In this document: positions 832 through 16,446 of the stretch, one piece after another | Numbering within the stretch: the first letter of the stretch is position 1 | How the letters are laid out: each line of letters opens with the position of its first letter | Source of the DNA: a virus | Strand: one strand, 5' to 3' | Virus record (IMG/VR): IMGVR_UViG_3300034105_001215 | Span: 1 to 23,679 of that record | DNA: 23,679 nt | The notes under the pieces: model-generated | The model's input: only the letters and a program-made list of their open reading frames with translations | Told to the model about the DNA's origin: nothing | Database searches by the model: none | Made by a program: the position numbers and the translations under genes

Positions 832-1998
832 ATGGAATTTATAGTAACTACTGCAATAAGAAAGTTATTACGTTTAAAGCAACGTATTAAGGTTATAAGA
901 GGTGGAACATCAGCAGGTAAAACATTTGGTATTCTACCTTTGTTAATTGACAAAGCAATAAAAGAACCTATGCTTGAAATAAGCGTAGTATCAGAATCAA
1001 TACCACATTTGCGTAGAGGTGCATTAAAAGACTTCTTAAAGATTATAATGGCGTTGGGTAGATATACTGACGCTAACTTTAATAAGAGTACTTTAAAGTA
1101 CACATTTGCAAATGGAAGTTATATTGAATTCTTTAGTGTTGACCAACCTGACAAATTAAGAGGTGCAAGAAGAAACATATTATACGTAAACGAATGTAAT
1201 AATATAGACTTTGATTCTTATTATCAAATGGCTATTCGTACTTCAGGCGATATATGGTTAGATTATAATCCTGCATCTGCATTTTGGGTAGACAAAGAAA
1301 TATTAACACAAGATAATATAGATTTTATTACATTGACCTATTTAGATAATGAAGCATTAAGTGATACTATAATAAAAGAAATAGAATCAGCTAAAGTAAA
1401 AGCATTAACTTCTTCATATTGGGCGAACTGGTGGCAAGTATATGGACTTGGACAAACAGGTAGTTTAGAAGGAGTTTGTATAACTGATTGGAATGAAATA
1501 GATATGCCTTCAGATGCAAGGATATTATGTTACGGTATGGATTTTGGTTACTCAAATGACCCAACATCTTTAGTAGCAATGTACAAATACAATGATGCTT
1601 ATATATTTGACGAATTGATTTATAAGAAAGGATTATTGAATAGTGAAATATCTAATCTATTAAAGGCAAATGAAATAGATACAATAATATATGCTGATAG
1701 TGCAGAACCAAAATCAATAGCAGAACTAAATACATACGGTCATAACATATTACCAGTATCAAAAGGTAAAGATTCAATCTTATATGGTATTAATTTAATC
1801 AATCAAAACAAAGTTTACGTTACATCAAGAAGTAAGAACTTAATTAATGAATTAAGAAACTATATATGGCTAACAGATAAAACAGGTGTTAAAATGAACA
1901 AGCCAATTGATTCGTATAACCACGCAATAGATGCTATGCGTTATGCTATAATGAGTCAATTAGAGAACCCAAATAAAGGAAACTATTTTATATATTAA
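832..1998 (+). CDS. terL: Terminase large subunit (packaging ATPase/nuclease)
   Basis: The 388-residue protein carries the full terminase layout. Walker A is RGGTSAGKT at residues 23-31. Walker B is ILYVNE at 116-121, ending in the catalytic Glu121. The coupling region DYNPAS lies at 144-149. The C-terminal RNase H-like nuclease has three acidic metal ligands: Asp237 in GMDFGYSNDPT, Asp289 in YADSAEP and Asp367 in SYNHAIDAMRY. It translocates DNA into the procapsid at the portal using ATP and cuts the concatemer. The length is on the short side for the family, but both domains are complete. It sits directly after the putative small subunit and is followed by a promoter-like box at 2006. Confidence 0.95.
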   Translation: MEFIVTTAIRKLLRLKQRIKVIRGGTSAGKTFGILPLLIDKAIKEPMLEISVVSESIPHLRRGALKDFLKIIMALGRYTDANFNKSTLKYTFANGSYIEFFSVDQPDKLRGARRNILYVNECNNIDFDSYYQMAIRTSGDIWLDYNPASAFWVDKEILTQDNIDFITLTYLDNEALSDTIIKEIESAKVKALTSSYWANWWQVYGLGQTGSLEGVCITDWNEIDMPSDARILCYGMDFGYSNDPTSLVAMYKYNDAYIFDELIYKKGLLNSEISNLLKANEIDTIIYADSAEPKSIAELNTYGHNILPVSKGKDSILYGINLINQNKVYVTSRSKNLINELRNYIWLTDKTGVKMNKPIDSYNHAIDAMRYAIMSQLENPNKGNYFIY

Positions 1999-2005
1999 AA
2001 TTGTA

Positions 2006-2013
2006 TATATTTG
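2006..2013 (+). promoter_or_regulatory. Bacteroidetes-type -7 box TATATTTG
   Basis: It matches the TAnnTTTG -7 consensus of the Bacteroidetes primary sigma factor and lies 27 bases before the start at 2040. No clear TTG -33 box was found at the usual spacing. Confidence 0.4.
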
Positions 2014-2039
2014 TATAATATTAAACTAATAATTAAATT

Positions 2040-2189
2040 ATGAGCTACGGACAAATGATTGCCACAATACAATGCTACTTACATCACGTTAAGAATGTAG
2101 AAGTAATGATTAACCTACCAAGAAATATAGGCGAAATTAAAAAGATGCAAGAAATGTATTTAATAGCTTCTGCTTATTTGAATAGTTAA
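2040..2189 (+). CDS. Small hypothetical protein (49 aa)
   Basis: A frame from ATG 2040 to TAA 2187-2189 encodes 49 residues beginning MSYGQMIATIQCYLHH. It is moderately hydrophobic at both ends and has no clear motif. It is flanked by two TATATTTG boxes, one upstream (2006) and one downstream (2227), so it may be a separately expressed monocistron. I do not recognise the family. The coding call rests on promoter spacing, a preceding A-rich leader and an otherwise empty 258-base gap. Confidence 0.5.
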   Translation: MSYGQMIATIQCYLHHVKNVEVMINLPRNIGEIKKMQEMYLIASAYLNS

Positions 2190-2226
2190 ATATTTGTTAA
2201 ATGTATTTTATTTAAAAGATAAGTAT

Positions 2227-2234
2227 TATATTTG
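2227..2234 (+). promoter_or_regulatory. Bacteroidetes-type -7 box TATATTTG
   Basis: This consensus -7 box lies 22 bases before ATG 2257. A T-rich stretch at 2206-2209 sits at about the right distance for the -33 element, although it lacks the G. Confidence 0.5.
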
Positions 2235-2256
2235 TATATAATTAAAAACAAAAAAT

Positions 2257-2463
2257 ATGAAAACAATTAAAGTAGCAGTAAATTATTGTGGTATAGAATT
2301 TGAAGTTAAAGGGTTCTATATAAAAGGTGATGACTATGATTATACAGGTAGTTGTATTGAAGATGTAGAAATATTAATAGAAGGTGTTGATGTATATCAA
2401 ATACTATCTACAAAACAAATGAATGATATAATAGATTTAGCAATACACGAAATAGAAGATTAA
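2257..2463 (+). CDS. Small acidic hypothetical protein (68 aa)
   Basis: The 68-residue acidic protein starts with two beta-like strands (MKTIKVAVNYCGIEFEVKG). A Tyr/Gly turn (DYDYTGSC) and a strand of the type EDVEILIEGVDVYQIL follow, with an acidic helix at the end. From memory this arrangement recurs in small proteins of many phages in which a short strand-rich core precedes an acidic helix, but the role is unknown. The gene has its own promoter-like box and an efficient terminator 30 bases after its stop. It is therefore probably a single-gene unit, perhaps expressed at a different time from the tail operon. Confidence 0.65.
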   Translation: MKTIKVAVNYCGIEFEVKGFYIKGDDYDYTGSCIEDVEILIEGVDVYQILSTKQMNDIIDLAIHEIED

Positions 2464-2492
2464 TTTAATTTGGTTAATTAAAGTGGAAATTA

Positions 2493-2519
2493 GACTTACA
2501 GAAATGTAGGTCTTTTTTT
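2493..2519 (+). terminator. Strong rho-independent terminator
   Basis: An 8-bp stem, GACTTACA (2493-2500) with TGTAGGTC (2505-2512), encloses a GAAA tetraloop and is followed by seven T. It separates the terminase-side genes from the tail module. Confidence 0.9.
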
Positions 2520-2526
2520 GTTTTAA

Positions 2527-2534
2527 TAGCTTTG
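2527..2534 (+). promoter_or_regulatory. Candidate -7 box TAGCTTTG for the tail operon
   Basis: TAGCTTTG fits TAnnTTTG and lies between the strong terminator and the tail chaperone gene, where a new promoter is expected. It also forms part of a small hairpin (AATAGC TTT GCTATT, 2525-2539). No convincing -33 box was seen. Confidence 0.35.
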
Positions 2535-2588
2535 CTATTTAGTTTAATACAATTACAACTTTATTTTATTATTATCAAAAACAATAAT

Positions 2589-3272
2589 ATGAAGTTAGAA
2601 ATTAGCATACCAACAGAATTAAACGAAATTAAGTTATCACAGTATCAGGCATTTTTAAAGATAGCTAAAGATAACACAGATGAAGAATTCTTACATCAGA
2701 AAATGGTACAAACGTTTTGTGGTATAGACTTAAAAGAAGTAGCGGAAATAAGATATAAAGAAGTAATAGAAATTACTGAGTCACTTGGTAAAATGTTTGA
2801 TGTTAAAAATCATAAATTTATCAGTAGATTTAAAATGGGTGGTGTTGAATTTGGATTCATTCCTAATTTAGATGATATGACCTTTGGTGAATATACAGAC
2901 TTAGACACGTATATAAACGATTGGGAGCAGATGCATAAAGCAATGGCAGTATTATATAGACCGATTAAAAAGAATGGCTTAAATGGGACGTATGACATTG
3001 AAAAATATAATGGTTCTATAACATATTCAGACGTAATGAAACACGCACCACTTGATGTTGTATTTGGTGCTAATGTTTTTTTTTACACTTTAGGCAACGA
3101 ACTATTGAAAAGTACGATGACTTATTTGGAGAACAGCAAGGAGATGAAGGATATTCTGCAACAGCACAATTCGGAAAACGGTGGGGATGGTATAGTTCAA
3201 TCTATGCTCTTGCTAAAGGAAACGTTACAGACTTTGATAGAATTACCGAATTACCGATTAACCAATGTTTAA
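2589..3272 (+). CDS. Tail assembly chaperone, zero-frame product (gpG-like)
   Basis: The 227-residue acidic protein is placed at the usual chaperone position, ahead of the tail genes and tape measure. The start at 2589 is chosen because the sequence from there (MKLEISIPTELNEIKLSQYQ) resembles known N-termini. The 19 extra residues from 2532 come from the terminator-promoter leader. Motifs include KFISRFKMGGVEFGFIPNLDD and a segment around VLYRPI. In phages such as lambda, two frameshift-related chaperones bind the tape measure and recruit tube subunits. A slippery run lies at codons 164-165. Sequence downstream of it is read in this frame to a TAA at 3270-3272 and in the -1 frame to 3337. Chaperone assignment is inferred from position, frameshift and family recollection. 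Confidence 0.75.
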   Translation: MKLEISIPTELNEIKLSQYQAFLKIAKDNTDEEFLHQKMVQTFCGIDLKEVAEIRYKEVIEITESLGKMFDVKNHKFISRFKMGGVEFGFIPNLDDMTFGEYTDLDTYINDWEQMHKAMAVLYRPIKKNGLNGTYDIEKYNGSITYSDVMKHAPLDVVFGANVFFYTLGNELLKSTMTYLENSKEMKDILQQHNSENGGDGIVQSMLLLKETLQTLIELPNYRLTNV

Positions 3273-3337
3273 CATATTTAACTTTTGAAAAGCAAAAGAA
3301 TCAAATAGAATCAGATTTAATAAAAAGAAATAAATGA
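2589..3337 (+). CDS. Tail assembly chaperone, -1 frameshift fusion (gpGT-like)
   Basis: If ribosomes slip back one base at 3077-3083, residues 1-165 of the chaperone are joined to 84 residues read in the -1 frame, for a total of 249. The -1 frame is closed by TAA at 3071-3073 just before the slip site, is then open to TGA 3335-3337, and contains no ATG of its own. Its product contains FGKRWGWYSSIYALAKGNV and ITELPINQCLTYL, which look like the C-terminal part of tail chaperones in related phages (from memory). Its stop overlaps the next gene as ATGA. That fits a translated frame, whereas the zero frame ends 61 bases earlier. Not proven without expression data. Confidence 0.7.
3077..3083 (+). 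promoter_or_regulatory. Programmed -1 frameshift slippery heptamer T_TTT_TTT
   Basis: Nine consecutive T (3076-3084) contain, in the zero frame, the canonical X_XXY_YYZ heptamer T TTT TTT. Both tRNA-Phe anticodons can re-pair after a -1 slip. The next zero-frame codon is TAC. Confidence 0.75.
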
Positions 3338-3789
3338 GTACATTCTACGAAATAACACAAGCTATAAAGAATCAATTACAGGAAGATATTTTTGTAAACA
3401 CAGTTACTATTGGTGATATATTTAAAGTTGATTTAAACAAGCAAACTATATTTCCTTTGAGTCATATAATTGTGAATTCAGTTTCATATCAAGGACCGGT
3501 ATTGAATTATAATATATCTATTCTAAGTATGGATATAGTAGACGAAAGTAAAGAAGAAGTTACAGATATATTTATAGGAAATGACAACGAACAAGATGTT
3601 TTAAACACACAATTAGCAGTTGCAAATAGATTCTTAGAAGTGTTGAACAGAGGTTCTTTAGGTGAAGATTATGAACTTGTAAATGGTACTGCATCAATAG
3701 AGTTCTTTACTGAAAGATTTGAAAATAAAATAGCTGGTGTTACTTATACATTTGATATTGCAATTCAAAATTCAATGACTATATGTTAG
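3334..3789 (+). CDS. Probable tail terminator / completion protein
   Basis: The 151-residue protein has an N-terminal helix (ITQAIKNQLQED), then alternating beta strands. A helical segment (NTQLAVANRFLEVLNRG) follows, and the C-terminal part is strand-rich and ends in an AGVTYTFDIAIQN strand. Small tail terminators of the lambda gpU / HK97 gp10-gp11 neighbourhood have similar size and composition. It starts by ATGA overlap with the frameshifted chaperone frame and overlaps the gp10-like gene by 7 bases. Such a protein caps the tube at the head-proximal end. The name is inferred from size, predicted fold and position, and a different minor neck protein is possible. Confidence 0.5.
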   Translation: MSTFYEITQAIKNQLQEDIFVNTVTIGDIFKVDLNKQTIFPLSHIIVNSVSYQGPVLNYNISILSMDIVDESKEEVTDIFIGNDNEQDVLNTQLAVANRFLEVLNRGSLGEDYELVNGTASIEFFTERFENKIAGVTYTFDIAIQNSMTIC

Positions 3790-4313
3790 AAGTAGAAAAG
3801 ACTATTAAGCGTTTTAGGGATTATGTTATTCAACAGTCAAGAAGTAACCTATCTAAAAGTGGTAAGAATAGTTCTAAAGAATTATATAATAGTTTAAAAG
3901 GTGAAGTAGTAACTGAAAACGGATATACTATTGTAGGATTTGAAATGGCTGATTATGGAGCATTTGTAGACCAAGGTGTTAAAGGTAAAACAAGTTCTAA
4001 TAAAGCACCGAATAGTCCATTTAAATTTGGTTCAGGTACTGGTAGAAAAGGTGGTTTAACAAAAGGAATAAATCAATGGGTTAAACAAAAAGGATTTCAA
4101 TTTCGTGATAGAAAGTCAGGTAAGTTCTTAAGTTATGATTCAACTGCTTATTTAATTACAAGAAGTATATTTCATAAAGGAATTAAACCAAGTTTGTTTT
4201 TTACAAAACCATTTGAAGCAGGTTATAAGAAATATATTGACGTTGATTTATTAAAAGCATTTGGACAAGATATAGAAACAATGGTAGATTATAATTTAAA
4301 AGATATAAAATGA
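3783..4313 (+). CDS. HK97 gp10-like tail/neck protein
   Basis: The 176-residue basic protein has the hallmark ADYGAFVDQGVKGKTSS near residues 56-72. This resembles the Y-x-x-FVE-x-G(T) region of HK97 gp10 family head-tail or tail-completion proteins. An N-terminal helix (KTIKRFRDYVIQQSRSNL) and an insertion rich in Gly/Lys (FGSGTGRKGGLTKG) are visible, and the C-terminal part is helical. Members of the family act at the neck during head-tail joining. It overlaps both neighbours (7 bases upstream, ATGA downstream). The gene is longer than typical gp10 because of the central Gly/Lys-rich loop. Confidence 0.65.
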   Translation: MLEVEKTIKRFRDYVIQQSRSNLSKSGKNSSKELYNSLKGEVVTENGYTIVGFEMADYGAFVDQGVKGKTSSNKAPNSPFKFGSGTGRKGGLTKGINQWVKQKGFQFRDRKSGKFLSYDSTAYLITRSIFHKGIKPSLFFTKPFEAGYKKYIDVDLLKAFGQDIETMVDYNLKDIK

Positions 4314-4471
4314 ACATAGTAAAAATTTATAAAGCAGATGATACAATTGAAACTTTTACAATTAAAAGCGAAAATACAATTGACTCAAATGAGTATGTAA
4401 TTTTGTGGGATTGCAAAGAAGAAATATATATAGATGAAGAATTAATTGATACAAAATATCACACAGTATGA
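4310..4471 (+). CDS. Small acidic protein in the tail operon (53 aa)
   Basis: A frame from ATG 4310 to TGA 4469-4471 fills the 154-base gap between two tail genes. It overlaps both by ATGA, a strong sign of a real coupled gene. The 53-residue product is acidic and strand-rich (MNIVKIYKADDTIETFTIK, then EYVILWDCKEEIYIDEELI) and has one Trp and one Cys. No family recognised. It may be a minor structural component or a small chaperone. Confidence 0.65.
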   Translation: MNIVKIYKADDTIETFTIKSENTIDSNEYVILWDCKEEIYIDEELIDTKYHTV

Positions 4472-5586
4472 AAGTAGTAAAAGTTAGAAGTCCATTTGTA
4501 ATTGAAGTAAGTGAAGTAGGTGCAATAGGTAGCAAAGTAGAATTATATATTTATCCTTACGGAAGTTCAGTTCCTGCAACTCCAACCTATACACTATCGA
4601 AATCAAATCCAAGTACAACACAATTAAACACGTCTTATAATGTTTCAAATTATGTTAAAGAATACATAGATAATATTAAAGCAACTTATGTTCCATTTTA
4701 TGGTGAACTTGAGCAGAATAACGAATGGGTAAAATTTCAAGTTAAAAGATATAAATTAGTAGGAAGTACTTATACTCTTTTAGATACAACTGATTATATT
4801 GGTGTAAATGGATTTACAGATTACACAAGTGGAAACCAAGAGCCAAGCGAAGTAAAAGTATTATTGTTATCAAATCCAAATATCAATAATTATTACTATA
4901 AACAAACAGCGTATCCAAATACATTAACGCAATATTTTAATTTGTTAGTTGATAAGCCAACAGCCACAACTACTACTATTAACGTAAAATACGAAAGGAT
5001 TGACGGAGTTGTTTATGAATATACAAATAATTTAGCGGTTGGTTTTACTGGTATATTTAATTTTGCTCAACCTATTACACCCGTTAAAGCAGACGGAAAC
5101 CTTGTTAATGGTTGTAAGGTAACAATCACATATACACCTGCAACAGGAAGTGCTATAATTTTACCTTCATTTTATACATACCCAATTGAAGAATGTAAAT
5201 ATACTCCCGTACTTTGTGACTTTATAAATAGATATGGTGGTTGGCAAACTATAACTTTTTTCAAGGCTCAAACAAATGCTGTAAACGTAAAAGGTTCAGA
5301 ATATAATTTACTACCTGATGCAATTGATTACAATGTGTATAAAGGTCAAAGCAAAGTTTTTAATATTAACGGAACACAAACCGTAAAATTAAATACTGGT
5401 TGGGTTGATGAAAATTATAATGAGTTAATAACTGATTTGTTATTAAGTGAAACTGTATTGTTAGATAACAAACCCGTAAAAGTTAAAACACAATCACACA
5501 CATACAAAACACAATTAAAAGATAAAATGATAAACTTTGAATTGGACTTTGAATATGCTTTTGACTTAATAAATAACGTAGTATAA
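4468..5586 (+). CDS. Tail tip structural protein (372 aa)
   Basis: This beta-rich 372-residue protein has many Thr/Tyr/Asn residues and no catalytic motif. Its N-terminus contains SPFVIEV and GAIGSKVELYIY, followed by a Pro/Ser/Thr loop (VPATPTYTLSKSNPS). From memory, similar openings occur in Bacteroidetes phage tail proteins encoded just before the large tail hub protein. Five Cys residues are not arranged as a metal site. The next gene begins one base after the stop. It is probably a distal tail or baseplate-like component, although an exact equivalent (for example Dit) cannot be named from the sequence alone. Confidence 0.55.
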   Translation: MKVVKVRSPFVIEVSEVGAIGSKVELYIYPYGSSVPATPTYTLSKSNPSTTQLNTSYNVSNYVKEYIDNIKATYVPFYGELEQNNEWVKFQVKRYKLVGSTYTLLDTTDYIGVNGFTDYTSGNQEPSEVKVLLLSNPNINNYYYKQTAYPNTLTQYFNLLVDKPTATTTTINVKYERIDGVVYEYTNNLAVGFTGIFNFAQPITPVKADGNLVNGCKVTITYTPATGSAIILPSFYTYPIEECKYTPVLCDFINRYGGWQTITFFKAQTNAVNVKGSEYNLLPDAIDYNVYKGQSKVFNINGTQTVKLNTGWVDENYNELITDLLLSETVLLDNKPVKVKTQSHTYKTQLKDKMINFELDFEYAFDLINNVV

Positions 5587-5587
5587 A

Positions 5588-7717
5588 ATGGTAAACGTTG
5601 GAATTTATATTTACACGGATAGCATAGCTGATTTGTCAAGTGTGTTTGTAGATAATTTTATAAGCAGGGTTCAAACTGATAGCGGTACTTTTGAGGCTGG
5701 AAATTGTTTACTAAGTGAATTACAAAACTTAGGTGGTTCTTTAGGCGTGGCTTTACAAGCTAAAAGAATTGAATTATTTTCAGACGAAAAAATAAGCGTT
5801 ACAAGTTCTATTCAAAATATAAATGATATAGGTAAAACATATACAGACTTTAGCCAAACGTTTACAGTTCCTGCTACTAAAAACAATAATAAGATTTTCA
5901 AACATTGGTATGAAAATTCAAATGAAAATGGATTTAGCACATTAGTTAAAGCTGATGCTTATATTGAATTAGATACAATCCCTTTTAGAAGTGGTAAGAT
6001 ACAATTAGAAAGTTGCGATATTAAAAACGGACAACCACAAAGCTATTCAATTACTTTTATTGGTATGTTAGGAAGTTTAAAAGATAAGTTTGGTGGCAAA
6101 AATTTAAATTTAATAGATTTATCTTCAAGTACATTATCTTATAATGGAACATTAGTTAAAAACAGAGTTCAAAATACAGGTACATTTAATGTTAGATTTC
6201 CATTAATATCTTCTGATAGATTATGGGCAGAAACAGGAACAACGCAAAACGTAACAACTACTGGTGGTGCTATAAGTTATTTAGAATTATTTCCTGCTAT
6301 AAAATTAAATAAAATATTTGATGCTATTGGTGCTTATTCTGGAGTTACCTTTAACGGTAACTTTTTAACTGATGCAAGATTTACAGATGCTTTTTTATAT
6401 TTAAAAAACGCTGAAGAATTTACATTAAAAACATTACCTACTGTAATTGATTTTACTACAACTTCGGGAGACATAACATTTGCAACATTTAACACTACAA
6501 CTGATAAAGCAACATTATCTAATTATGATGCACCAGTTGGTAACACCTATGTATCGGCATCAATTGATTTAAATATGAAATTTACTGTTGCAAATATTGA
6601 ATTTAATATTTTAGTTTATAAGAATGGAATTTTACAAAATACATTTACTAAGTTAACAAAAACAGTATTAACATCTTATAGAATTTTTAGTACTACTTCG
6701 CCTATTGGTGATTTTGCAGGAGAATATAATTATGTAATTACAGCTGAAGAGCCAGTTTCGTTTACTGATGCAAATATAAAATATAATTATATTTATAAAG
6801 ATGATATTACAAGTGTGCTAACAACAAAAACATTAACAGCTACAAAACCAGCAGCACCAACTGTAACTACAAATTTAAATATAGATTTGTCATCTTATAT
6901 TCCTGACATAAAAATAGAAGATTTCTTTAGTGGTATTTTAAAACAATTTAATTTAACTTGTTATTCAGAAACCGCAAATGTTTATACAATAAATACTATT
7001 GAAACTTATTATTCATTAGGAACAATTAAAGACATTACAAAGCATATTAAATCTGATAGTGTAAATTTAAATAGGTCAAAAACATATAAGAAAATAAATT
7101 TTGATTATGAGAAAAGCAATTGTTTTTTATCACAGAAATATCTTTCAAATAATGGTGTTGAATATGGAAATTTAAAAGCAGATTTGGGAACTGAAGGTGA
7201 AGATTATATTGTGAAACTACCATTTGAAAATTTATTGTTTTCAAAGTTTACAAGTCAAGATTTACAACTTGGATATTGTTTAGATAGTAATTATCAACCA
7301 TATATTCCTAAGCCAATTATATTATATAATTATGGAATTGTAAGTTGTAGTTTTTATATAAACGATGGTTCTGCTGATTATCTATTAACTAATTACAATG
7401 CATTTGGACAAGATTTATTAGTAAGTGGAATTAACTATTCTTTAAATTTTGGTTCAGATATTAGTAGTTTATTATTATACCCAATAGAAAATAGTTTATA
7501 CAATCAATATTACGAAAAATATTTAGTTAATATATTTAACTATAAAGCAAGATTAATTAAAGTTAGTGCTATATTACCAACATCAATATTAACTACGCTT
7601 AAATTGAATGATAGACTTATAATAAGAGATAAAAGATATATTATAAATTCTTTTACAACTGATTTAACAACAGGTGAAGCATCATTTGAATTATTAACTG
7701 ACTTAAGAACATTATGA
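5588..7717 (+). CDS. Large tail-tip/hub protein (709 aa)
   Basis: This is the largest protein in the window. Its N-terminus carries a short motif (NFISRVQTDSGTFEAGNCLL, residues 23-42) that recurs in the small fibre-region protein at 17643. After it, RIELFSDEKISVTSSIQNINDIG and TYTDFSQTFTVPAT suggest a beta-structured tail-hub domain similar to those attached to the tube end. The middle is Thr/Asn-rich beta sequence. The C-terminal region ends with LNDRLIIRDKRYIINSF, of the kind found in tail proteins whose last domain is an OB-like or hub fold. It lies between the 372-aa protein and the tape measure. Probable function: central tail tip in contact with fibres. Confidence 0.6.
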   Translation: MVNVGIYIYTDSIADLSSVFVDNFISRVQTDSGTFEAGNCLLSELQNLGGSLGVALQAKRIELFSDEKISVTSSIQNINDIGKTYTDFSQTFTVPATKNNNKIFKHWYENSNENGFSTLVKADAYIELDTIPFRSGKIQLESCDIKNGQPQSYSITFIGMLGSLKDKFGGKNLNLIDLSSSTLSYNGTLVKNRVQNTGTFNVRFPLISSDRLWAETGTTQNVTTTGGAISYLELFPAIKLNKIFDAIGAYSGVTFNGNFLTDARFTDAFLYLKNAEEFTLKTLPTVIDFTTTSGDITFATFNTTTDKATLSNYDAPVGNTYVSASIDLNMKFTVANIEFNILVYKNGILQNTFTKLTKTVLTSYRIFSTTSPIGDFAGEYNYVITAEEPVSFTDANIKYNYIYKDDITSVLTTKTLTATKPAAPTVTTNLNIDLSSYIPDIKIEDFFSGILKQFNLTCYSETANVYTINTIETYYSLGTIKDITKHIKSDSVNLNRSKTYKKINFDYEKSNCFLSQKYLSNNGVEYGNLKADLGTEGEDYIVKLPFENLLFSKFTSQDLQLGYCLDSNYQPYIPKPIILYNYGIVSCSFYINDGSADYLLTNYNAFGQDLLVSGINYSLNFGSDISSLLLYPIENSLYNQYYEKYLVNIFNYKARLIKVSAILPTSILTTLKLNDRLIIRDKRYIINSFTTDLTTGEASFELLTDLRTL

Positions 7718-7860
7718 TAAAACACATTTTAGAATTATTAGCATTGCACGAACACTACGGACAAAGCGAAGTAATAGAAATAGCGAAAGGAAAATATAAA
7801 TTAATAACTACTTGGAGTCAAGTATTTGAACAAATAAAAAGACAATGGAGAATAAGGTAG
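7714..7860 (+). CDS. Small protein before the tape measure (48 aa)
   Basis: A frame from ATG 7714 to TAG 7858-7860 overlaps the hub gene as ATGA and the tape measure gene by 16 bases. The 48-residue product (MIKHILELLALHEHYGQSE, and later ITTWSQVFEQIKRQW) is helical with His and Trp residues. Short proteins of this kind commonly sit between tail genes in phages of this group, but I do not know their role. The overlap at both ends supports a genuine coupled gene. Confidence 0.6.
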   Translation: MIKHILELLALHEHYGQSEVIEIAKGKYKLITTWSQVFEQIKRQWRIR

Positions 7861-9680
7861 TTACATTAAAAATAGAAAGCAATTTAGATAGTATTACTAA
7901 AGACGTTAAAAAATTAGGTAATTCTTTTGAAGATACTGCTGACGAAATAAAAGGCATACAACAATCAACTAAAAATGCTGAAGCAGGAGTTAAATCTTTA
8001 GCAGATGGATTTAAAGGAATGGGTTTAGCTATTAAAGCAATTGGTATTGGTTTAGTAATGGAAGCCTTTAATTTATTTAAAGAAGTATTAGGTAAGAATC
8101 AAAAAGTAGTAGACACATTTAATACTGTTATTGGTGCTTTGTCTATTGCATTTAATGATTTATTTGGTTTTGTAATGGATAATTTCCCTACAGTAATTAA
8201 AATTTTTAAAGATGTATTTGAAAACCCTACAAAATATTTACAAAAGTTTGGTGATTTAGTTAAAGAAAATTTAATTGAAAGATTTAATTCATTTTTAGAT
8301 ACAATAGGTTACGTTGGTGAATCAATTAAAAAAGTATTTGAAGGTGATTTTGCAGGCGCTATGGAATCTGTAAAGAAAGCTGGAAAAGAATCTTTAGATG
8401 TTTTAACAGGTGTTAATAATTCATTTGATAGAGGTAAAAAAATAGTTGGCGATGCTGCTGATGCAATTGGTAACTATGCAGTTAAAACTTATAATGCATC
8501 TGAAGCAAATATTAAACTACAAAATTCTGCCCTTATAGCTGCTGCTGAACAAGCTAAATTAGTTGAACAATATGATAGACAAGCAGAAAGTCAAAGGCAA
8601 ATTAGGGATAATGATTTATTATCTATTTCAGATAGAATAAAAGCTAATGATAAATTAAAAACTATATTAGAAAAACAAGAAGCGGCTATGCTTAAGGCAG
8701 CAAATTTACAAAAAGATGCTGCAGCAGCTACATATAATCTTAATAAAACAACAGAAAATAGAGTTGCGTTAATTAATGCTGAAGCAAATGTAGAAGGAGT
8801 ATTAGCACAAATTAAAGGTTTAAAAAGTGAACAACTTGCGAATGAAAATTCATTAACAAAAGAATCTAATGATTTATTACAAAGTCAAATAGATACAAAA
8901 AATGAATTAAATGTTAAATCAAAACAATTTGATTCAGAACAAGAATTAACTGAAATTAAAAAATTAGAAAAGCAAAGGGAAGTTATAACGTTACAACAAG
9001 AAATAGACAATGCTGAATTATTGCGTAAAAGAAAATTATATGCCGATGGAACACAAGCAAGAGTAGATGCTGAAAATGAGTTTTTAATTAAAAAACAAGA
9101 AACAGATAATGCTTTAGTTACTAATCAATCTGAAACTAATAAGAAATTAAAAGCAGATGCTGAAGCACTTAGAGATGCTAAATTAGCTATTAGAAATGCA
9201 GAATTAGATGCAGTTAGTGGCGGTATTAATATATTAAAAGGAGTATTTGAAAAAAATAAAGGGATACAAAAAGGATTATTAATAGCTGAAAATGCAGCAG
9301 GTATTGCTAAGATTATAATTAATACAATGGCTGCAAATGCAAAGGCATTATTATTAGGGCCTGTATTAGCACCGCCAACAATAACTGCAAACACTATTAG
9401 CGCAAGTATTGGTGTAGCTTCTTCAATTGCTGCAACTGCAAAAGGATTAGCTGCTTTAGGAGGTGGTTCTGCTGGTGGTTCAAGTTCAGTTAGTAGTGGA
9501 GGTATGGCTGCTCCTGCTGCTCCTAACTTCAATGTAGTAGGTGCAAGTTCAACAAATCAATTAGCACAAACAATTGGTTCACAACAACAACAACCTATAA
9601 AGGCTTATGTAGTAGCGAATGATGTGACAACTCAACAAGGCTTGGATAGAAATATAGTACAATCAGCAAGTATAGGATAA
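7845..9680 (+). CDS. Tail tape measure protein
   Basis: The 611-residue protein is mostly alpha-helical. It has long coiled-coil stretches (about residues 240-460), a hydrophobic N-terminal segment (GMGLAIKAIGIGLVMEAF, about 57-74) and a Gly/Ala/Ser-rich region near 515-560. The tail ends PIKAYVVANDVTTQQGLD, a C-terminal signature I associate with tape measures of Bacteroidetes phages. It sets tail length and is passed into the host envelope during DNA ejection. By the common ratio of about 1.5 angstrom per residue this would correspond to a fairly short siphovirus tail. That estimate assumes an all-helical protein. Confidence 0.85.
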   Translation: MENKVVTLKIESNLDSITKDVKKLGNSFEDTADEIKGIQQSTKNAEAGVKSLADGFKGMGLAIKAIGIGLVMEAFNLFKEVLGKNQKVVDTFNTVIGALSIAFNDLFGFVMDNFPTVIKIFKDVFENPTKYLQKFGDLVKENLIERFNSFLDTIGYVGESIKKVFEGDFAGAMESVKKAGKESLDVLTGVNNSFDRGKKIVGDAADAIGNYAVKTYNASEANIKLQNSALIAAAEQAKLVEQYDRQAESQRQIRDNDLLSISDRIKANDKLKTILEKQEAAMLKAANLQKDAAAATYNLNKTTENRVALINAEANVEGVLAQIKGLKSEQLANENSLTKESNDLLQSQIDTKNELNVKSKQFDSEQELTEIKKLEKQREVITLQQEIDNAELLRKRKLYADGTQARVDAENEFLIKKQETDNALVTNQSETNKKLKADAEALRDAKLAIRNAELDAVSGGINILKGVFEKNKGIQKGLLIAENAAGIAKIIINTMAANAKALLLGPVLAPPTITANTISASIGVASSIAATAKGLAALGGGSAGGSSSVSSGGMAAPAAPNFNVVGASSTNQLAQTIGSQQQQPIKAYVVANDVTTQQGLDRNIVQSASIG

Positions 9681-9747
9681 AAAGTGCACCACATATGATA
9701 TATAAAACAAATAAAAATTAAATTAATTATAATTAAAAAAATATAAG

Positions 9748-10338
9748 ATGCGAATAGTAGAATTAATAATAGATGAAAATGAAAAGTTAAGTGGAATAGA
9801 TGCAGTTTCAATTGTAGAATTCCCTGCAATAGAATCTAACTTTATTGCATTAAGCGAACATTTAGAACTTGCAAAAGTAGATGATGAAAAAAAGATTTTA
9901 ATGGGTGCTGCATTAATACCAAATAAAAACATTTACAGAAGAAATGGAAATGATGAATATTATATTTTCTTTTCAGAAGATACAGTACGCAAAGCAAGTG
10001 AATTATTTTTAATGAATAGCAATCAAAACAACGCTACATTAGAACACGAAAAGAAACTAAAGGATTTAACTGTAGTTGAATCTTGGATAGTTGAAGATAC
10101 TGAAATGGATAAATCTAAAAAGTATGACTTAAATGCACCCGTAGGTACTTGGATGGTATCTATGAAAGTAAACAATGAAGCTATATGGAATGACTTTGTG
10201 AAAACAGGAAAAGTTAAAGGCTTTAGCATCGAAGGATATTTTTCAGACAAATTAGAAATGAGTTTAGAATTTGCAAAAGAACAAGAACTATTAGATAAAA
10301 TAAAATCAATTATAAATAATGCTGAAATTAATAAATAA
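9748..10338 (+). CDS. Prohead protease, XkdF/S78-like
   Basis: The 196-residue protein matches the XkdF-like (peptidase S78_2) prohead protease layout. An N-terminal strand region leads to LMGAALIPNKNIYR (51-64). The candidate catalytic histidine is His100 in ATLEHEKKL. A conserved segment, VVESWIVEDTEMDKSKKY, leads to VGTWMVSMKV. The candidate nucleophile is Ser160 in GFSIEGYF. It would cleave scaffold and capsid precursors inside the procapsid. The position directly before the scaffold and capsid genes supports this. The third catalytic residue is not certain from sequence alone. A 67-base AT-rich gap precedes it. Confidence 0.8.
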   Translation: MRIVELIIDENEKLSGIDAVSIVEFPAIESNFIALSEHLELAKVDDEKKILMGAALIPNKNIYRRNGNDEYYIFFSEDTVRKASELFLMNSNQNNATLEHEKKLKDLTVVESWIVEDTEMDKSKKYDLNAPVGTWMVSMKVNNEAIWNDFVKTGKVKGFSIEGYFSDKLEMSLEFAKEQELLDKIKSIINNAEINK

Positions 10339-10342
10339 AATT

Positions 10343-10528
10343 ATGGGAAATAAAACAAGTTCACCAAAAGGTGGTAAAAGAGGTTGCGTATGTAAAGATG
10401 GAACATACAGTTCAAAATGTTGTAATGGTGAGTTATCAGAACAAGGAATTGGAAGTTTAACAAATCAACAAGTTGTTGTAACAACTAATACAGATAACAC
10501 AAGAACTATAACTAATGTAAGTTCGTAA
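10343..10528 (+). CDS. Small Cys-rich protein of the head module (61 aa)
   Basis: The start at 10343 is preferred over 10319, because 10319 would overlap the protease gene by 20 bases while 10343 follows its stop by four bases. The first part holds a Cys cluster (RGCVCKDGTYSSKCC, residues 12-26), then NGELSEQGIGSL, then a Thr-rich tail. From memory, proteins with CxC...YS..CC and Q-GIG are recurrent in Bacteroidetes phages next to capsid genes. A metal site or disulfide knot is possible. Function unknown. Confidence 0.65.
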   Translation: MGNKTSSPKGGKRGCVCKDGTYSSKCCNGELSEQGIGSLTNQQVVVTTNTDNTRTITNVSS

Positions 10529-10578
10529 TTTATAACAAATATAAATAATATTAATTTAAACTATAAATACTTATAAAT

Positions 10579-11127
10579 ATGAATGTGATTAACGAAATTA
10601 AAACGCTTTTGGGAATGGAGATAAAACTTGCCCAAATGAAACTTAAAGATGGTATTACAGTAATCGAAGCAGATGCTTTTGAACCTGAACAAGCTGTTTT
10701 TATAGTAAACGGTGAAGAACGTATTGCAATGCCAGTTGGTGAATACGAACTTGAAGATGGAATGATTTTAGTAGTAGCCGTTGAAGGTATTATTGCTGAA
10801 ATTAAAGAAGCTGCAATTGAAGAAGAATCACCTGAAGCAGAAGAAGAAGTTGAAGTTGAAGCACAAGCTGAAACAGTTGCAACTCCTAAAAGAATCGTTG
10901 AATCAGTTTCTAAAGAAATGTTCTTTGCTGAAATTGAAAAACTAAGAACTGAAATTGCTGAATTAAAATCAGTAAAAGAAGTTGTTAAAGAAGAATTAAG
11001 TTCAGAAGTTGTTGTTGAACCATTAACACACTCACCTGAAGTTAAAAACGAAGTTAAACTAAATAAAATATCAACTAATCGCCAAATGACTACACAAGAT
11101 ATAGTTATGGCAAAACTTTTTAATTAA
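10579..11127 (+). CDS. Probable capsid scaffold protein
   Basis: The 182-residue protein has a strand-rich N-terminal part (MKLKDGITVIEADAFE, then VNGEERIAMPVGEYE). A highly acidic Glu/Val/Ala linker follows at about 81-100 (EEESPEAEEEVEVEAQAE). A coiled-coil helix comes next at about 115-140. The C-terminus is basic (NRQMTTQDIVMAKLFN). Acidic, coiled-coil proteins immediately before the major capsid gene are usually scaffolds that guide shell assembly and are removed by the protease. The C-terminal basic end may contact the capsid protein. The gene is six bases from the capsid gene. Scaffold function is inferred from composition and position. Confidence 0.7.
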   Translation: MNVINEIKTLLGMEIKLAQMKLKDGITVIEADAFEPEQAVFIVNGEERIAMPVGEYELEDGMILVVAVEGIIAEIKEAAIEEESPEAEEEVEVEAQAETVATPKRIVESVSKEMFFAEIEKLRTEIAELKSVKEVVKEELSSEVVVEPLTHSPEVKNEVKLNKISTNRQMTTQDIVMAKLFN

Positions 11128-11133
11128 TAAACT

Positions 11134-12078
11134 ATGGCTACTACAACATCAATTACAACTACCTATGCTGGGGAGTTTGCAGGAAAATATATTTCTGCTG
11201 CATTATTATCAGGTTCTACAATCGCTAATGGCGGTATTGAAGTAAAACCAAACATTAAATACAAAGAAGTTATCAAAAGAATTGCTACTGACGGAATCGT
11301 TAAAAATGCAACTTGTGATTTTGATGCTACTTCTACTGTAACATTAACTGAAAGAGTAATTACTCCTGAGGAATTCCAAGTAAATTTACAACTTTGTAAG
11401 AAGGACTTCAAATCTGATTGGGAAGCGGTTCAAATGGGGTATTCTGCATTTGATAATTTACCTCCAAGTTTTGCTGATTTCTTATTAGCACACGTTGTTT
11501 CTAAAATTGCTGAAAAAACAGAACAAAACATTTGGAAAGGTGTTAATGCTACTGCAGGTGAATTTGACGGATTCTTAACTCTTGCTGCTGCTGATGCTGC
11601 TGTTCTTGATGTAGCTTCTCCTGCTTCGGGTGGTGTTACTGCTGCTAACGTAATTGCTGAACTTGGAAAAGTTGTTGATTTGATTCCTGCTTCACTTTAC
11701 GGAAAAGAAGATTTATATCTTTATGTTTCACAATCTGTAGCTCGTGATTATGTACGTGCTTTAGGTGGATTCGGAGCAAGTGGTTTAGGTTCAAATGGTA
11801 CTAACAATTTAGGTACACAATGGTTCAATAATGGTTCATTATCTTTTGATGGTGTTAAAATCTTTGTTTGTAACGGAATGACAAATGATTATATGATGGC
11901 TGCACAAAAATCTAACTTATATTTTGGAACTGGTTTATTATCTGACCAAAACGAAATCAAGGTAATTGATATGGCTGACATCGATGGTTCAGAAAATGTA
12001 AGAGTAGTAGCCCGTTTTACTGCTACTGTTCAATATGGTGTTGGTGCTGAAATCGTTCTTTACACACCTGCAGCATAA
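11134..12078 (+). CDS. Major capsid protein
   Basis: The 314-residue protein follows the protease and scaffold genes and precedes an efficient terminator, as expected for the most heavily expressed structural gene. It begins MATTTSITTTYAGEFAGKYI and has a mid-region of alternating helices and strands (EEFQVNLQLCKKDF). Gly/Ala-rich loops include ALGGFGASGLGSNG, and the C-terminus is strand-rich (VRVVARFTATVQYGVGAEIV). The codons are the least AT-skewed of the structural genes, and several alanine and glycine codons use GCT and GGT. HK97 fold is assumed because all tailed phages use it, although the sequence alone does not prove it. Confidence 0.8.
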   Translation: MATTTSITTTYAGEFAGKYISAALLSGSTIANGGIEVKPNIKYKEVIKRIATDGIVKNATCDFDATSTVTLTERVITPEEFQVNLQLCKKDFKSDWEAVQMGYSAFDNLPPSFADFLLAHVVSKIAEKTEQNIWKGVNATAGEFDGFLTLAAADAAVLDVASPASGGVTAANVIAELGKVVDLIPASLYGKEDLYLYVSQSVARDYVRALGGFGASGLGSNGTNNLGTQWFNNGSLSFDGVKIFVCNGMTNDYMMAAQKSNLYFGTGLLSDQNEIKVIDMADIDGSENVRVVARFTATVQYGVGAEIVLYTPAA

Positions 12079-12087
12079 TTATAAAAT

Positions 12088-12118
12088 AAAGGGTAGGTAA
12101 TATTATCTACCCTTTTTT
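12088..12118 (+). terminator. Terminator after the major capsid gene
   Basis: A nine-pair stem, AAAGGGTAG (12088-12096) with CTACCCTTT (12107-12115), is followed by T 12113-12118. It lies within the 64-base gap before the tube-like genes and probably sets the ratio of capsid to downstream transcripts. Confidence 0.85.
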
Positions 12119-12142
12119 ATTAACTTTAAAAATACATAGACT

Positions 12143-12694
12143 ATGCCTTGCGATATATCATTAGGACGTGCTGAACAATGTAAAAATTCAGTAGGAGGAT
12201 TAAAAGCAGCATACTTCATTAATTGGGGTGATGCTACAACGGTAACATATTCTGCAACTGCAGGACAAGAAGATGTTATAACTGCTTTAGGTGGTACACC
12301 AGTAGGTTATAAATATGAATTGAAGGGAACTTCAACTTTTGAACAAACTGTAACAAGTTCAAGAGAAAACGGTACTACATTTGTAGACCAAAAATTAAGT
12401 TTAAGTTTGAAAAAATTATCTATTGCTGACCACAAACAATTGAAATTACTTTCTTACGGAAGACCACAAGTTATCATTGAAGATAATAATGGAAGTTTCT
12501 TTATGGCAGGTTTAACTAAAGGTATGGATTTGGTAACTTCAACTATTTCAAGTGGTGCTGCAATGGGCGATATGAGTGGTTATAAAATTGAACTTCAAGG
12601 TATGGAACCTTTAGCAGCAAATTTCATAGTACCAACTGCTGGTACATTAGTTAGTGCAGTTTTAGCTTCTATCGTTGAAGGTACTGTAGCATAA
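12143..12694 (+). CDS. Tail-tube-like protein, paralogue A (183 aa)
   Basis: This 183-residue strand-rich protein begins MPCDISLGRAEQCKNSVGG and contains YKYELKGTSTFEQTV, the motif SSRENGTTF, LKKLSIADHKQLKLLSYGRP, EDNNGSFFMAGL and AAMGDMSGYKIELQGME. These are features I associate with a tail tube or tail-tube-like structural protein in Bacteroidetes phages. A strand-rich fold and its location after the capsid gene are consistent with that. It is clearly paralogous to the next gene. Tube versus head decoration cannot be settled from sequence alone. Confidence 0.6.
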   Translation: MPCDISLGRAEQCKNSVGGLKAAYFINWGDATTVTYSATAGQEDVITALGGTPVGYKYELKGTSTFEQTVTSSRENGTTFVDQKLSLSLKKLSIADHKQLKLLSYGRPQVIIEDNNGSFFMAGLTKGMDLVTSTISSGAAMGDMSGYKIELQGMEPLAANFIVPTAGTLVSAVLASIVEGTVA

Positions 12695-12717
12695 TATTAA
12701 TTTTAAAAAAGTAGACT

Positions 12718-13257
12718 ATGCCTTGTGATATAACCTTGGGAAGAGCGGAACAATGTAAGAATGTTATTGGTGGAATAAAAGCTGTTTATCTTTTTAATTA
12801 TCTTAGTAATGAAGTTATAACTGTTGATAGCAATGATGTAATACAAAATGTGGCAAATGCTACTGAAGCATCAGTATATAAATACGAGTTAAAAGGAGCT
12901 TCAACTTTTGAACAAACAATTACCTCATCAAGAGAAAATGGTTCGTCTTTTGTAGAACAGAAATTAACTTTACATTTAAAGAAATTATCTGTTGCTGACC
13001 ACAAACAACTTAAAATTTTAAGTTATGGTAGACCAAGAATATTTATAGAAGATAACAACGGTAACATATTTTTAGCTGGAAAAGAAAAAGGTATGGAATT
13101 AACTACTTCTACAATTTCTACAGGTGCATCAATGAGTGATATGTCAGGTTATAAATTAGAGTTTTTAGGAACTGAATATATTTCTGCTAATTTTATTCTT
13201 AATAACGATTTAGATTCTATTGGATTAGAATTTATTGTTGTAGGTACTGTAGCATAA
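12718..13257 (+). CDS. Tail-tube-like protein, paralogue B (179 aa)
   Basis: The protein repeats the pattern of its upstream neighbour: MPCDITLGRAEQCKN, YKYELKGASTFEQTI, SSRENGSSF, LKKLSVADHKQLKILSYGRP, EDNNGNIFLAGK, MSDMSGYKLEF. The block GRAEQCKN and the core from YKYELKG to MSGYK are strongly conserved, while residues 28-50 and the C-terminus diverge. The leader (TTAAAAA and GTAGACTATGCC) is also duplicated. This implies a tandem gene duplication. The second copy may be a minor tube or cap subunit. Two adjacent AUG starts with nearly the same context suggest similar translation levels. Confidence 0.6.
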   Translation: MPCDITLGRAEQCKNVIGGIKAVYLFNYLSNEVITVDSNDVIQNVANATEASVYKYELKGASTFEQTITSSRENGSSFVEQKLTLHLKKLSVADHKQLKILSYGRPRIFIEDNNGNIFLAGKEKGMELTTSTISTGASMSDMSGYKLEFLGTEYISANFILNNDLDSIGLEFIVVGTVA

Positions 13258-13280
13258 TATTATTATTTGTTTTTTTTATA

Positions 13281-13317
13281 AAAAGGTGTACTTTAATTAG
13301 TATGCCTTTTTTGTTTT
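13281..13317 (+). terminator. Terminator after the tube-like genes
   Basis: An 11-pair imperfect stem, AAAAGGTGTAC (13281-13291) with GTATGCCTTTT (13300-13310), contains two G-T wobbles. T-rich sequence follows (TTGTTTT). Confidence 0.75.
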
Positions 13318-13353
13318 AAAACAATTCTTATTTATATTTATTATAATTAAAAA
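13316..13353 (+). repeat. 38-bp direct repeat, copy 1
   Basis: It begins TTAAAACAATTC and ends TATAATTAAAAA. It is identical over 38 bases to 14209-14246, and the two copies enclose the four-gene reverse cassette. The A-tract at its right end doubles as the T-tract of the minus-strand terminator. Confidence 0.9.
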
Positions 13354-13378
13354 AGGGTAACTTAATTGATACCCTTTT
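13345..13378 (-). terminator. Terminator of the minus-strand cassette
   Basis: The stem is AAAAGGGTA (13351-13359) with TACCCTTTT (13370-13378). Read on the minus strand it is followed by a run of six T (13354-13349). The stem overlaps the last codons of the 64-aa gene. The plus strand also has T after it, so it may work in both directions. Confidence 0.75.
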
Positions 13379-13556
13379 CTTTTTGTAATTCTTCTAATAT
13401 TAAACGAATGTTAGTTATTTCAAGTTTAAGATTAGATATAATATTATCAGCAGCTTTTATTTTACCTTCTGCACTATATTTATATCTATCTAATGATTTA
13501 TTTTCTATTTTTAAATCTACTATTTCTTCTATTAAATATTTTACTACTTCTTTCAT
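13362..13556 (-). CDS. Cassette gene 4: coiled-coil protein (64 aa)
   Basis: This minus-strand gene encodes 64 residues, mostly one long heptad-like helix (YLIEEIVDLKIENKSLDRYK, then DNIISNLKLEITNIRLILEE), with Lys/Glu-rich polar faces. It starts one base after the stop of the 85-aa gene (TAA T ATG), so it is probably coupled to it. Its last codons lie in the terminator stem. No enzymatic residues or membrane segment are visible. A role as a dimeric adapter or binding protein is possible but is only inference. Confidence 0.6.
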   Translation of the reverse strand: MKEVVKYLIEEIVDLKIENKSLDRYKYSAEGKIKAADNIISNLKLEITNIRLILEELQKEKGIN

Positions 13557-13557
13557 A

Positions 13558-13815
13558 TTACTCTTTTATTGCTGTTATTAATTTATATAAAAATCTATAA
13601 TTTGTTTGTGAGTAAATATATTGAATAAAAGTTATTTTATAATCAATATATTCATTATTATTTTGAATAGTTATTATTTCATTTGTTTTATGATTTATTT
13701 GTTTATCACAAAAATATTCGTGTTCTAAATTACCTTTTTTAATTAAAACATATTTTGTTCTTGTTTTTAAACTTAAATCTATATTATCTAATCTTGTTTC
13801 TATTAATTTACTCAT
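13558..13815 (-). CDS. Cassette gene 3: hypothetical protein (85 aa)
   Basis: The 85-residue basic protein opens MSKLIETRLDNIDLSLKTR. Strand and loop sequence follows (KYVLIKKGNLEHEYFCDKQI), ending in an aromatic helix (TFIQYIYSQTNYRFLYKLI). It has one His and one Cys but no clear motif. The minus-strand leader AAATTAATGTAATG before its start is repeated at the start of cassette gene 2. I do not recognise the family. It lies in the same operon as the two coiled-coil proteins. Confidence 0.55.
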   Translation of the reverse strand: MSKLIETRLDNIDLSLKTRTKYVLIKKGNLEHEYFCDKQINHKTNEIITIQNNNEYIDYKITFIQYIYSQTNYRFLYKLITAIKE

Positions 13816-13842
13816 TACATTAATTTCTTAAAATTATAATAT

Positions 13843-14001
13843 TCATTGATTTACTAAAATTTCACACCAATAATTTAAAAGTGTGTTGTTTTCTTTTTTT
13901 AATTTATTATTTTCTTCTTTTAATTTTAAAATTTCTGAATATAATTTATTATTTATTTCTAAAAAATGCTCCATTTTTTTTTTATATTGTCCCTCGTTCA
14001 T
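13843..14001 (-). CDS. Cassette gene 2: coiled-coil protein (52 aa)
   Basis: The frame runs from ATG (14001-13999) to TGA (13845-13843). It encodes 52 residues: a short basic start, a Lys/Glu/Asn-rich helix (KLKEENNKLKKENNTLL, residues 27-43), then NYWCEILVNQ. The heptad spacing of Leu and Ile suggests a coiled coil of about 30 residues. A run of ten T on the plus strand (13974-13983) makes the Lys7-Lys9 region sensitive to indels. If that run is a sequencing slip, the internal Met10 could be the start. Stop and start of the upstream gene overlap by one base (TAATG). Confidence 0.55.
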   Translation of the reverse strand: MNEGQYKKKMEHFLEINNKLYSEILKLKEENNKLKKENNTLLNYWCEILVNQ

Positions 14002-14132
14002 TACATTAATTTATTTAAGTTAAACACAAATTGACTACCATCTTCAAATCTAAACAAACCAAAGTTTTTATTTGTTTGTATTAAAGTTACTATTGTATTA
14101 TTCCAAAACCTATACTTTGTTCCTATTTCCAT
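14001..14132 (-). CDS. Cassette gene 1: small beta protein (43 aa)
   Basis: This is the first gene of the minus-strand operon, 43 residues from ATG at 14132 to TAA at 14001. The sequence alternates strands and turns (GTKYRFWNNTIVTLIQTNK, then FGLFRFEDGSQFVFNLNKL). This resembles a small barrel of the SH3 type, but similarity to a named family is not established. A minus-strand promoter-like box lies 24 bases before the start. It is coupled to the next gene by a TAATG overlap. Confidence 0.55.
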   Translation of the reverse strand: MEIGTKYRFWNNTIVTLIQTNKNFGLFRFEDGSQFVFNLNKLM

Positions 14133-14156
14133 TTTTTTTGTTTTAAATTGTTTTGA

Positions 14157-14164
14157 CAAATATA
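14157..14164 (-). promoter_or_regulatory. Minus-strand -7 box for the cassette operon
   Basis: The plus-strand bases CAAATATA read TATATTTG on the minus strand, the Bacteroidetes -7 consensus, 24 bases before the first cassette gene. A TTG lies upstream at 15-base spacing, closer than the usual 19 or so. Confidence 0.55.
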
Positions 14165-14208
14165 TAAAACTTTATAATACAAAATCTACTTTAACAAATA
14201 TTTAACTA

Positions 14209-14246
14209 TTAAAACAATTCTTATTTATATTTATTATAATTAAAAA
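14209..14246 (+). repeat. 38-bp direct repeat, copy 2
   Basis: This is the exact second copy of 13316-13353. It ends six bases before ATG 14253. Recombination between copies would remove the cassette and leave one copy as the leader of the 137-aa gene. Confidence 0.9.
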
Positions 14247-14252
14247 TATTAT

Positions 14253-14666
14253 ATGATAATTTTAAAAGAGCAAATAGAATCACAAACTATAAAATTCATA
14301 CCGAGATTTTACTCGGCAGATACTCTTATTTTAAGAAACGAAACAACTAATATTTCAGTTACATTAAATCCTACATTTGTAGTTGATGGATATTATTTAA
14401 AATGTGATTTAGCTTTAGATTTAAAAGAAAATACTTTTTATAATTTAACTATTTTAAGTACTGCTTTGCCTTTTACTGCTGACAATGGAATTAAAACAGC
14501 TGATAATAATATATTAACTGCAGATATGACACAATTTAGTAGTGAGAATTCTTTAATTTATAGAGATAAAATCTTTTGTACAAATCAAAACAAGAATAAC
14601 TATACTGTTAATGAGAATCAATACGTAGCAAACGTTACAACAAACGAATTTAAAATATATGAGTAA
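14253..14666 (+). CDS. Pre-portal hypothetical structural protein (137 aa)
   Basis: The 137-residue beta-rich protein has FIPRFYSADTLILRNE near the N-terminus, then FYNLTILSTALPF, and a C-terminal part with LIYRDKIFCTNQN and NYTVNENQY. From memory, proteins with a terminal RDKIFCT segment are found just before the portal gene in Bacteroidetes phages. Its stop overlaps the portal start by 8 bases, so it is probably coupled. Function unknown. Head-associated or fibre-attachment roles are possible. Confidence 0.6.
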   Translation: MIILKEQIESQTIKFIPRFYSADTLILRNETTNISVTLNPTFVVDGYYLKCDLALDLKENTFYNLTILSTALPFTADNGIKTADNNILTADMTQFSSENSLIYRDKIFCTNQNKNNYTVNENQYVANVTTNEFKIYE

Positions 14667-16443: not shown

Positions 16444-16446
16444 AAA

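Follow-up and report, generated by a model that had tools for sequence, protein, structure and literature searches.

The phage gene at 2589-3337 of the window (the whole 23,679-nt stretch analysed here) is a real, conserved and dual-coded frameshift gene, and the placement of its T-like domain inside the G-like reading frame is unlike known systems. A conserved slippery site late in the upstream open reading frame, followed by a conserved extension in the -1 frame, was found in all 113 dereplicated lineages that we compared. The slip site and both reading frames beyond it are conserved, and the agent of the frame change, the ratio of the products and a tail-chaperone function are inferred. It is reasonably likely that the gene encodes a G/GT-like pair made by ribosomal slippage on a run of nine T (T9), with both C-terminal ends under selection. 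Such a gene would yield two proteins with the first ~163 residues in common. Most expression would read straight through and give a 227-aa 'G' form carrying the zero-frame tail, and a minority would shift to the -1 frame on the T9 and give a 'GT' form of ~249 aa that ends in a helical domain with a WGWY motif. The T domain would lie mostly inside the reading frame of G, and the overlapped tail of G would itself be a selected part of the abundant form. The features of the locus, all on the + strand, are as follows.

2589-3272, +: zero-frame (G-like) gene of 227 aa, from ATG 2589 to TAA 3270-3272; its C-terminal tail is conserved beyond the slip site
3071-3073, +: TAA shutting the -1 frame just 5' of the slip site, read from the sequence
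3076-3084, +: T9 slip site, with the in-phase heptamer T_TTT_TTT at 3077-3083
3077-3337, +: -1 frame extension (T-like domain), 86 codons from TTT 3077 plus TGA, with a conserved (K/R)WGWY core
3085-3269, +: dual-coding overlap of the zero-frame tail and the -1 domain, from selection, recoding test and codon-position variation
3091-3093, +: TAG shutting the third frame two codons past the T run, read from the sequence
3334-3337, +: ATGA, the -1 stop overlapping the start of the next gene (3334-3789), read from the sequence

The zero-frame codons across the T run are GTT TTT TTT TAC (3075-3086), and 62 sense codons follow the run up to the TAA at 3270-3272, not 63 as the title of the first-pass annotation had it. 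The other readings of that annotation agree with the sequence: the TAA at 3071-3073, the nine T at 3076-3084, a -1 frame of 84 codons to the TGA at 3335-3337 with no ATG, and the ATGA overlap at 3334-3337. Counted from 3074, the -1 frame has 87 sense codons (84 from TTA at 3083), and Met is absent from the translated extension. An ATGA or TAATG-type overlap with the next gene is usual among relatives. The overlap is also GC-rich, as had been noticed, with 38% G+C compared with 31% in the gene upstream and 18% after the zero-frame stop; the 32 G+C in the 70 bases at 3121-3190 are reached by only 0.6% of the 70-mers in a window of 27.8% GC.

Conservation of the slip site

Searched with the two proteins of the window itself, IMG/VR yielded 318 (zero frame) and 392 (-1 frame) relatives, and a broader-profile search raised this to at least ~590. 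Since the broader searches rely on patterns close to the N-terminus of the zero-frame protein and midway along it, they are unbiased towards the slip site. A further, distant set of 80 loci was reached through the -1 domain, using one distant member as query, and six related loci were found in GTDB genomes. Isolate phages are represented by four records, the two isolates being Nonlabens phages P12024L and P12024S; sequence searches of isolate phages, a consensus fusion query included, found no isolate beyond this pair. Altogether, hundreds of IMG/VR contigs and several host genomes show the arrangement, and the phage family is large and uncultured, its known relatives infecting Bacteroidota. 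The distant Bacteroidia prophage L404 likewise has T9 and ~57 overlap codons.

Dereplication gave 113 lineages for the slip-site counts, of which 97 have T9, 14 T10, one T12 and one T8. All 113 contain an in-phase T_TTT_TTT, a heptamer present in any T9 run. Among 303 loci with a closed zero frame, automatic detection gave a run of 9, 10 or 12 T in 300; the remaining three (L115, L145 and L147) are contigs cut inside the gene, for which the automatic search started downstream of the site, and T9 is present in each on inspection. The conserved Phe-Phe pair is coded TTT TTT in 77 of 77 lineages of one dereplicated set, for which the chance expectation is 7e-15 with TTC making up 19% of Phe codons. 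The offset of the -1 frame is the same in every locus tested. An upstream -1 stop lies within two codons of the T run in 11 of the 113 lineages, the median distance being 15 codons.

The T9 is not a sequencing slip, because near-identical contigs (L004-L010, 97-99% identity) from seven separate metagenomes all have it. The run length reported by the first-pass annotation thus recurs in independent data, and hundreds of independent contigs rule out sequencing error as the source of the frame change. Within the window's listed genes the T9 is the sole run of eight or more T; runs of eight or more A are absent from these genes, compared with about five predicted by synonymous recoding. Two codons past the T run, the third frame is closed in 92 of the 113 lineages (conserved TTTAR), a stop that may act as a safeguard or may be a by-product of coding for Leu (frame 0) and Phe-Arg/Lys (frame -1).

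Selection on both reading frames in the overlap

Purifying selection acts on both frames within the overlap. We used an omega estimator written for the purpose, in which each change is sorted by its effect in both frames. It gave the zero frame an omega of 0.48 (0.29-0.84) and the -1 frame one of 0.32 (0.18-0.56). In a single-coded control, the fake frames gave 1.14 (zero-frame control) and 0.97, and the real frame 0.09. Over the second half of the overlap, omega is clearly below 1 for both frames. Neither value is individually below 1 in the first half, where the case for dual coding rests on the recoding test and on lowered synonymous rates, which in both frames are ~1/4 of the single-coded rate.

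The recoding test asks whether distant relatives resemble each other in one frame more than the protein of the other frame would force them to. They do so in the zero frame (z 3.3 and 4.1 in two clades) and in the -1 frame (z 6.3 and 5.3), with upstream controls at z -0.3 to 0.8; the pairs compared are not independent, because the distant representatives are few (5 and 7). Furthermore, when random synonymous codons were drawn for the zero-frame protein, the -1 frame stayed open through the overlap in 0.09% of draws. Variation by codon position changes along the gene as well. Before the slip site it is concentrated at third positions (0.28 vs 0.08 and 0.05), after the zero-frame stop it moves to the -1 wobble position (0.26 vs 0.07 and 0.13), and within the overlap it is mixed over the positions (0.13, 0.20, 0.20). 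The suggestion that the same bases carry two selected proteins is thus upheld by the omega values and by the recoding test in two clades.

A zero-frame tail that is merely a passive by-product, open by chance over a -1 domain that alone is selected, is very improbable on these data. Such a reading can point to the zero-frame 'GDGI', which arises automatically from the WGWY codons, and to clades in which the zero frame ends after only 15-47 codons, Nonlabens phages P12024L and P12024S among them. However, when synonymous codons for the -1 protein were drawn at random, only 1.9% of draws kept 62 zero-frame codons free of stops, and in a second clade the probability of 55 open codons given the -1 protein is 0.005; nevertheless, the zero frame runs for at least 53 codons without a stop in 97.6% of 210 sequences. 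The zero-frame omega, well under its control, and the two zero-frame z values of the recoding test argue against a passive tail as well.

After the slip site, the overlap of 62 codons (186 nt) in the window equals the median of the first set of relatives, in which it ranges from 16 to 87 codons. Long overlaps occur over most of the tree, and short ones mainly in the Nonlabens/L227 pair and in an L310-like clade. The long overlap is probably old and was shortened in some clades, an age that is read indirectly, since the tree is unrooted. As the first-pass annotation had remarked for lambda, the overlap is unusually long: the annotated G and T of lambda overlap by 19 nt, the zero frame of P2 stops 20 nt past the slip site, and the SEA-PHAGES mean is 26 nt (PMC10885494), compared with the 186 nt of the window gene, over which both frames are selected. 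The hundreds of natural sequences now available allow long same-strand dual coding to be studied, and they provide a natural alignment for measuring how two frames share selection. Such dual coding, when conserved over many lineages, seems to be uncommon in DNA phages.

The two products and a putative role in tail assembly

The model of the zero-frame protein has an overall pLDDT of 80.5, with a well predicted core and values of 37-62 beyond residue ~183. The -1 product is modelled as a conserved helical domain with a WGWY core (pLDDT 87.2 in the best model, 70-78 in the others). In the PDB, profile searches by sequence matched neither product to a solved structure, and a fold search with the zero-frame model found no match. 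Structure searches did match both models to uncharacterised phage proteins. Four viral proteins of 240-267 aa (A0A516L611, A0A516L5A8, A0A6J7WJY4 and A0A6J5N0W0) match both, which suggests, from predicted structures, that some phages carry both domains in one frame; the fusion is deduced from length and the double match, as these matches come without target coordinates. The structural match to a Flavobacterium phage 6H protein (the 191-aa CDS 10352-10927, assigned by length and followed by a short ORF) was dropped, since a T run is missing there and profiles do not support a T domain.

A second case comes from prophage L405, in a genome from the bacterial family to which the Flavobacterium MAG also belongs. 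Here a -1-type domain is part of one ORF that sits after the terminase and before the tail genes, in the order terminase, domain gene, two small genes, two large genes and tape measure; the N-terminal part of this single-ORF protein is not recognisably related to the zero-frame protein. These cases suggest that the -1 domain exists elsewhere as an in-frame C-terminal domain, and the product pair is therefore most likely G/GT-like.

The extension is thus best described as the C-terminal domain of the upstream protein and not as a separate gene, the in-frame fusion of the viral proteins being itself deduced. That the -1 ORF is a gene of its own, with its own start and translated by coupling, is highly improbable. 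It is annotated in this manner, from an ATG, in the Nonlabens phages, and GTG or TTG codons are found in 32 of the 113 lineages. However, in 109 of the 113 the -1 frame has no ATG ahead of the WGWY core, the conservation of -1 coding starts right at the T run, and other proteins appear to have in-frame counterparts.

The Nonlabens phages P12024L and P12024S (Inhavirus) share with the window homologous proteins in both frames, the T9, the -1 offset and the position directly after the terminase, and differ in a zero frame that ends about 25 codons past the slip. Their gene pairs P12024L_40/41 and P12024S_38/39 are annotated as two separate hypothetical genes. P12024L_41 (L002 2588-2755) and its S counterpart are annotated in GenBank from an internal ATG, and are probably the tail end of the frameshift product. 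The present gene adds a two-frame gene of a kind that annotators now split, as in these phages, or miss. We found no description of a frameshift in this T9/WGWY phage gene family in the open-access literature.

With lambda G/GT the gene has in common a shared N-terminal domain, a minority -1 extension as a second domain and a tail-gene context; no sequence similarity to lambda G/GT was found. By analogy with lambda G/GT and with P2 E/E+E', the latter placed here with PF10109 (Phage_TAC_7) on the strength of the Pfam description, the G part would form a coat around the tape measure; the T domain would recruit tail-tube subunits, and the frameshift would set the G/GT ratio. Tail-chaperone identity is likely, by the analogy of architecture and synteny. 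Two genes of the window, one on either side of the frameshift gene, belong to this setting.

832-1998, +: terminase large subunit (phrog_2 1.6e-36, PF17288 7.3e-20)
7845-9680, +: probable tape-measure protein (phrog_21537 'virion structural protein' 5.6e-22; phrog_3336 tape measure only 0.049)

In prophage L405 the syntenic gene is clearly recognisable as a tape measure (phrog_3336 5.6e-21). In the window, the tape-measure-like gene lies ~4.5 kb downstream with several genes between, a spacing that is the same in L405, and the frameshift gene hence does not adjoin it between tail tube and tape measure; in lambda, by contrast, T is directly followed by the tape measure. Profile searches gave no significant tail-chaperone family match, the best being PF10109 at 0.043 in 3 of 56 members; phrog_166 'tail protein' reached 0.0043 in 8 of 57, and both PF10109 and phrog_166 are weak hits among many chance-level matches. 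A search of 295 Bacteroidia genomes for PF10109 gave no hit. The label of tail chaperone given by the first-pass annotation is hence putative in its strict sense. We consider it quite probable that the gene works like G/GT, and we do not claim formal family membership, because no significant chaperone-family match was obtained.

It is unlikely, though compatible with either mechanism of frame change discussed below, that the frame change and dual coding are real and the protein is some other tail or head-tail assembly factor. The missing family match and the distance to the tape measure speak for such a factor. Against it, the G/GT architecture, the size and the position between terminase and tape measure fit a chaperone, and what very weak similarity there is points to PF10109 and a tail PHROG.

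From 832 to 16947 the structural genes run terminase, frameshift gene, tail genes, tape-measure-like gene, XkdF-like protease (PF14550), capsid-like gene and portal (phrog_33693). This order is unusual, with the portal about 13 kb from the terminase. Two tandem paralogues at 12143-12694 and 12718-13257 (110 of 183 aligned columns identical, both phrog_19091) look tail-tube-like by eye, a putative function.

Ribosomal or transcriptional slippage

The ribosome is the probable agent of the frame change. U_UUU_UUU within the T9 would most likely act through a tandem slip of tRNA-Phe, unaided by a strong RNA stimulator. No downstream stimulatory RNA structure, a frequent though not universal companion of -1 ribosomal frameshifting, was found (z +1.15 in the window, mean z near 0 over 40 lineages). 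A known case with a similar site is P2 E/E+E', likewise a two-product tail gene with a T-rich -1 slip site (T_TTT_TTG), although with six T in place of nine and a zero-frame stop 20 nt and not 62 codons past the slip. We know of no characterised tail-chaperone frameshift that is not ribosomal. Known chaperone frameshifts are likewise described as ribosomal in the literature (PMC5009743).

The run nevertheless slides in phase yet keeps nine T, and RNA structure is absent, which makes RNA-polymerase slippage a live rival, although a tentative one. By this mechanism the same two products would arise when the polymerase slips on T9/A9, mRNAs with one extra U giving the GT form. Bacterial RNA polymerase slips efficiently on nine T in vivo (PMC5009743), and that of E. 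coli from about seven (PMC6260861). A conserved homopolymer of ~8-9 or more A or T, as expected for transcriptional slippage, is what we find: the whole run is kept, with nine or more T in 112 of 113 lineages and eight once. Moreover, each of the three possible codon phases of the run is represented among the lineages. All six lineages with no T after the heptamer have two T before it, and two of the three with none before it have two after it; by parsimony the registers (2,0) and (0,2) each take two to three changes, and the latter is also seen in prophage L404. Register shifts that keep the length point to selection on run length, which polymerase slippage would account for and which a heptamer requirement alone does not predict. 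The closed third frame would, in addition, limit other slippage products. Thermus dnaX-type transcriptional slippage (PMC5009743) offers a parallel in its run of nine T/A and its lack of an RNA stimulator, in a gene and function unrelated to the window gene.

Against slippage by the polymerase stand the mere six T of the P2 site, the coding that partly forces the flanking T (aliphatic-Phe-Phe-aromatic in frame 0, Phe-Phe-Leu in frame -1) and the confinement of the phase shifts to a few clades. An in-phase heptamer is automatic in any run of nine or more, so both mechanisms fit the data. What the first-pass annotation called a canonical U_UUU_UUU hence stands as an in-phase heptamer, and less so as a canonical ribosomal slip, given the conserved run length and the lack of downstream structure. 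Taken as a whole, an old and widespread phage family whose chaperone pair is made by RNA-polymerase slippage on a length-conserved T9, with ~55-62 codons truly dual-coded, appears rather unlikely to us, and ribosomal slippage remains our preferred reading. The gene poses a clear question: whether a tail-length regulator is set by the ribosome or by RNA polymerase.

Elsewhere in the window, a T10 on the + strand at 13974-13983 corresponds to an A10 in the minus-strand ORF 13843-14001, where it encodes Lys-Lys-Lys, and is a possible second slippery tract.
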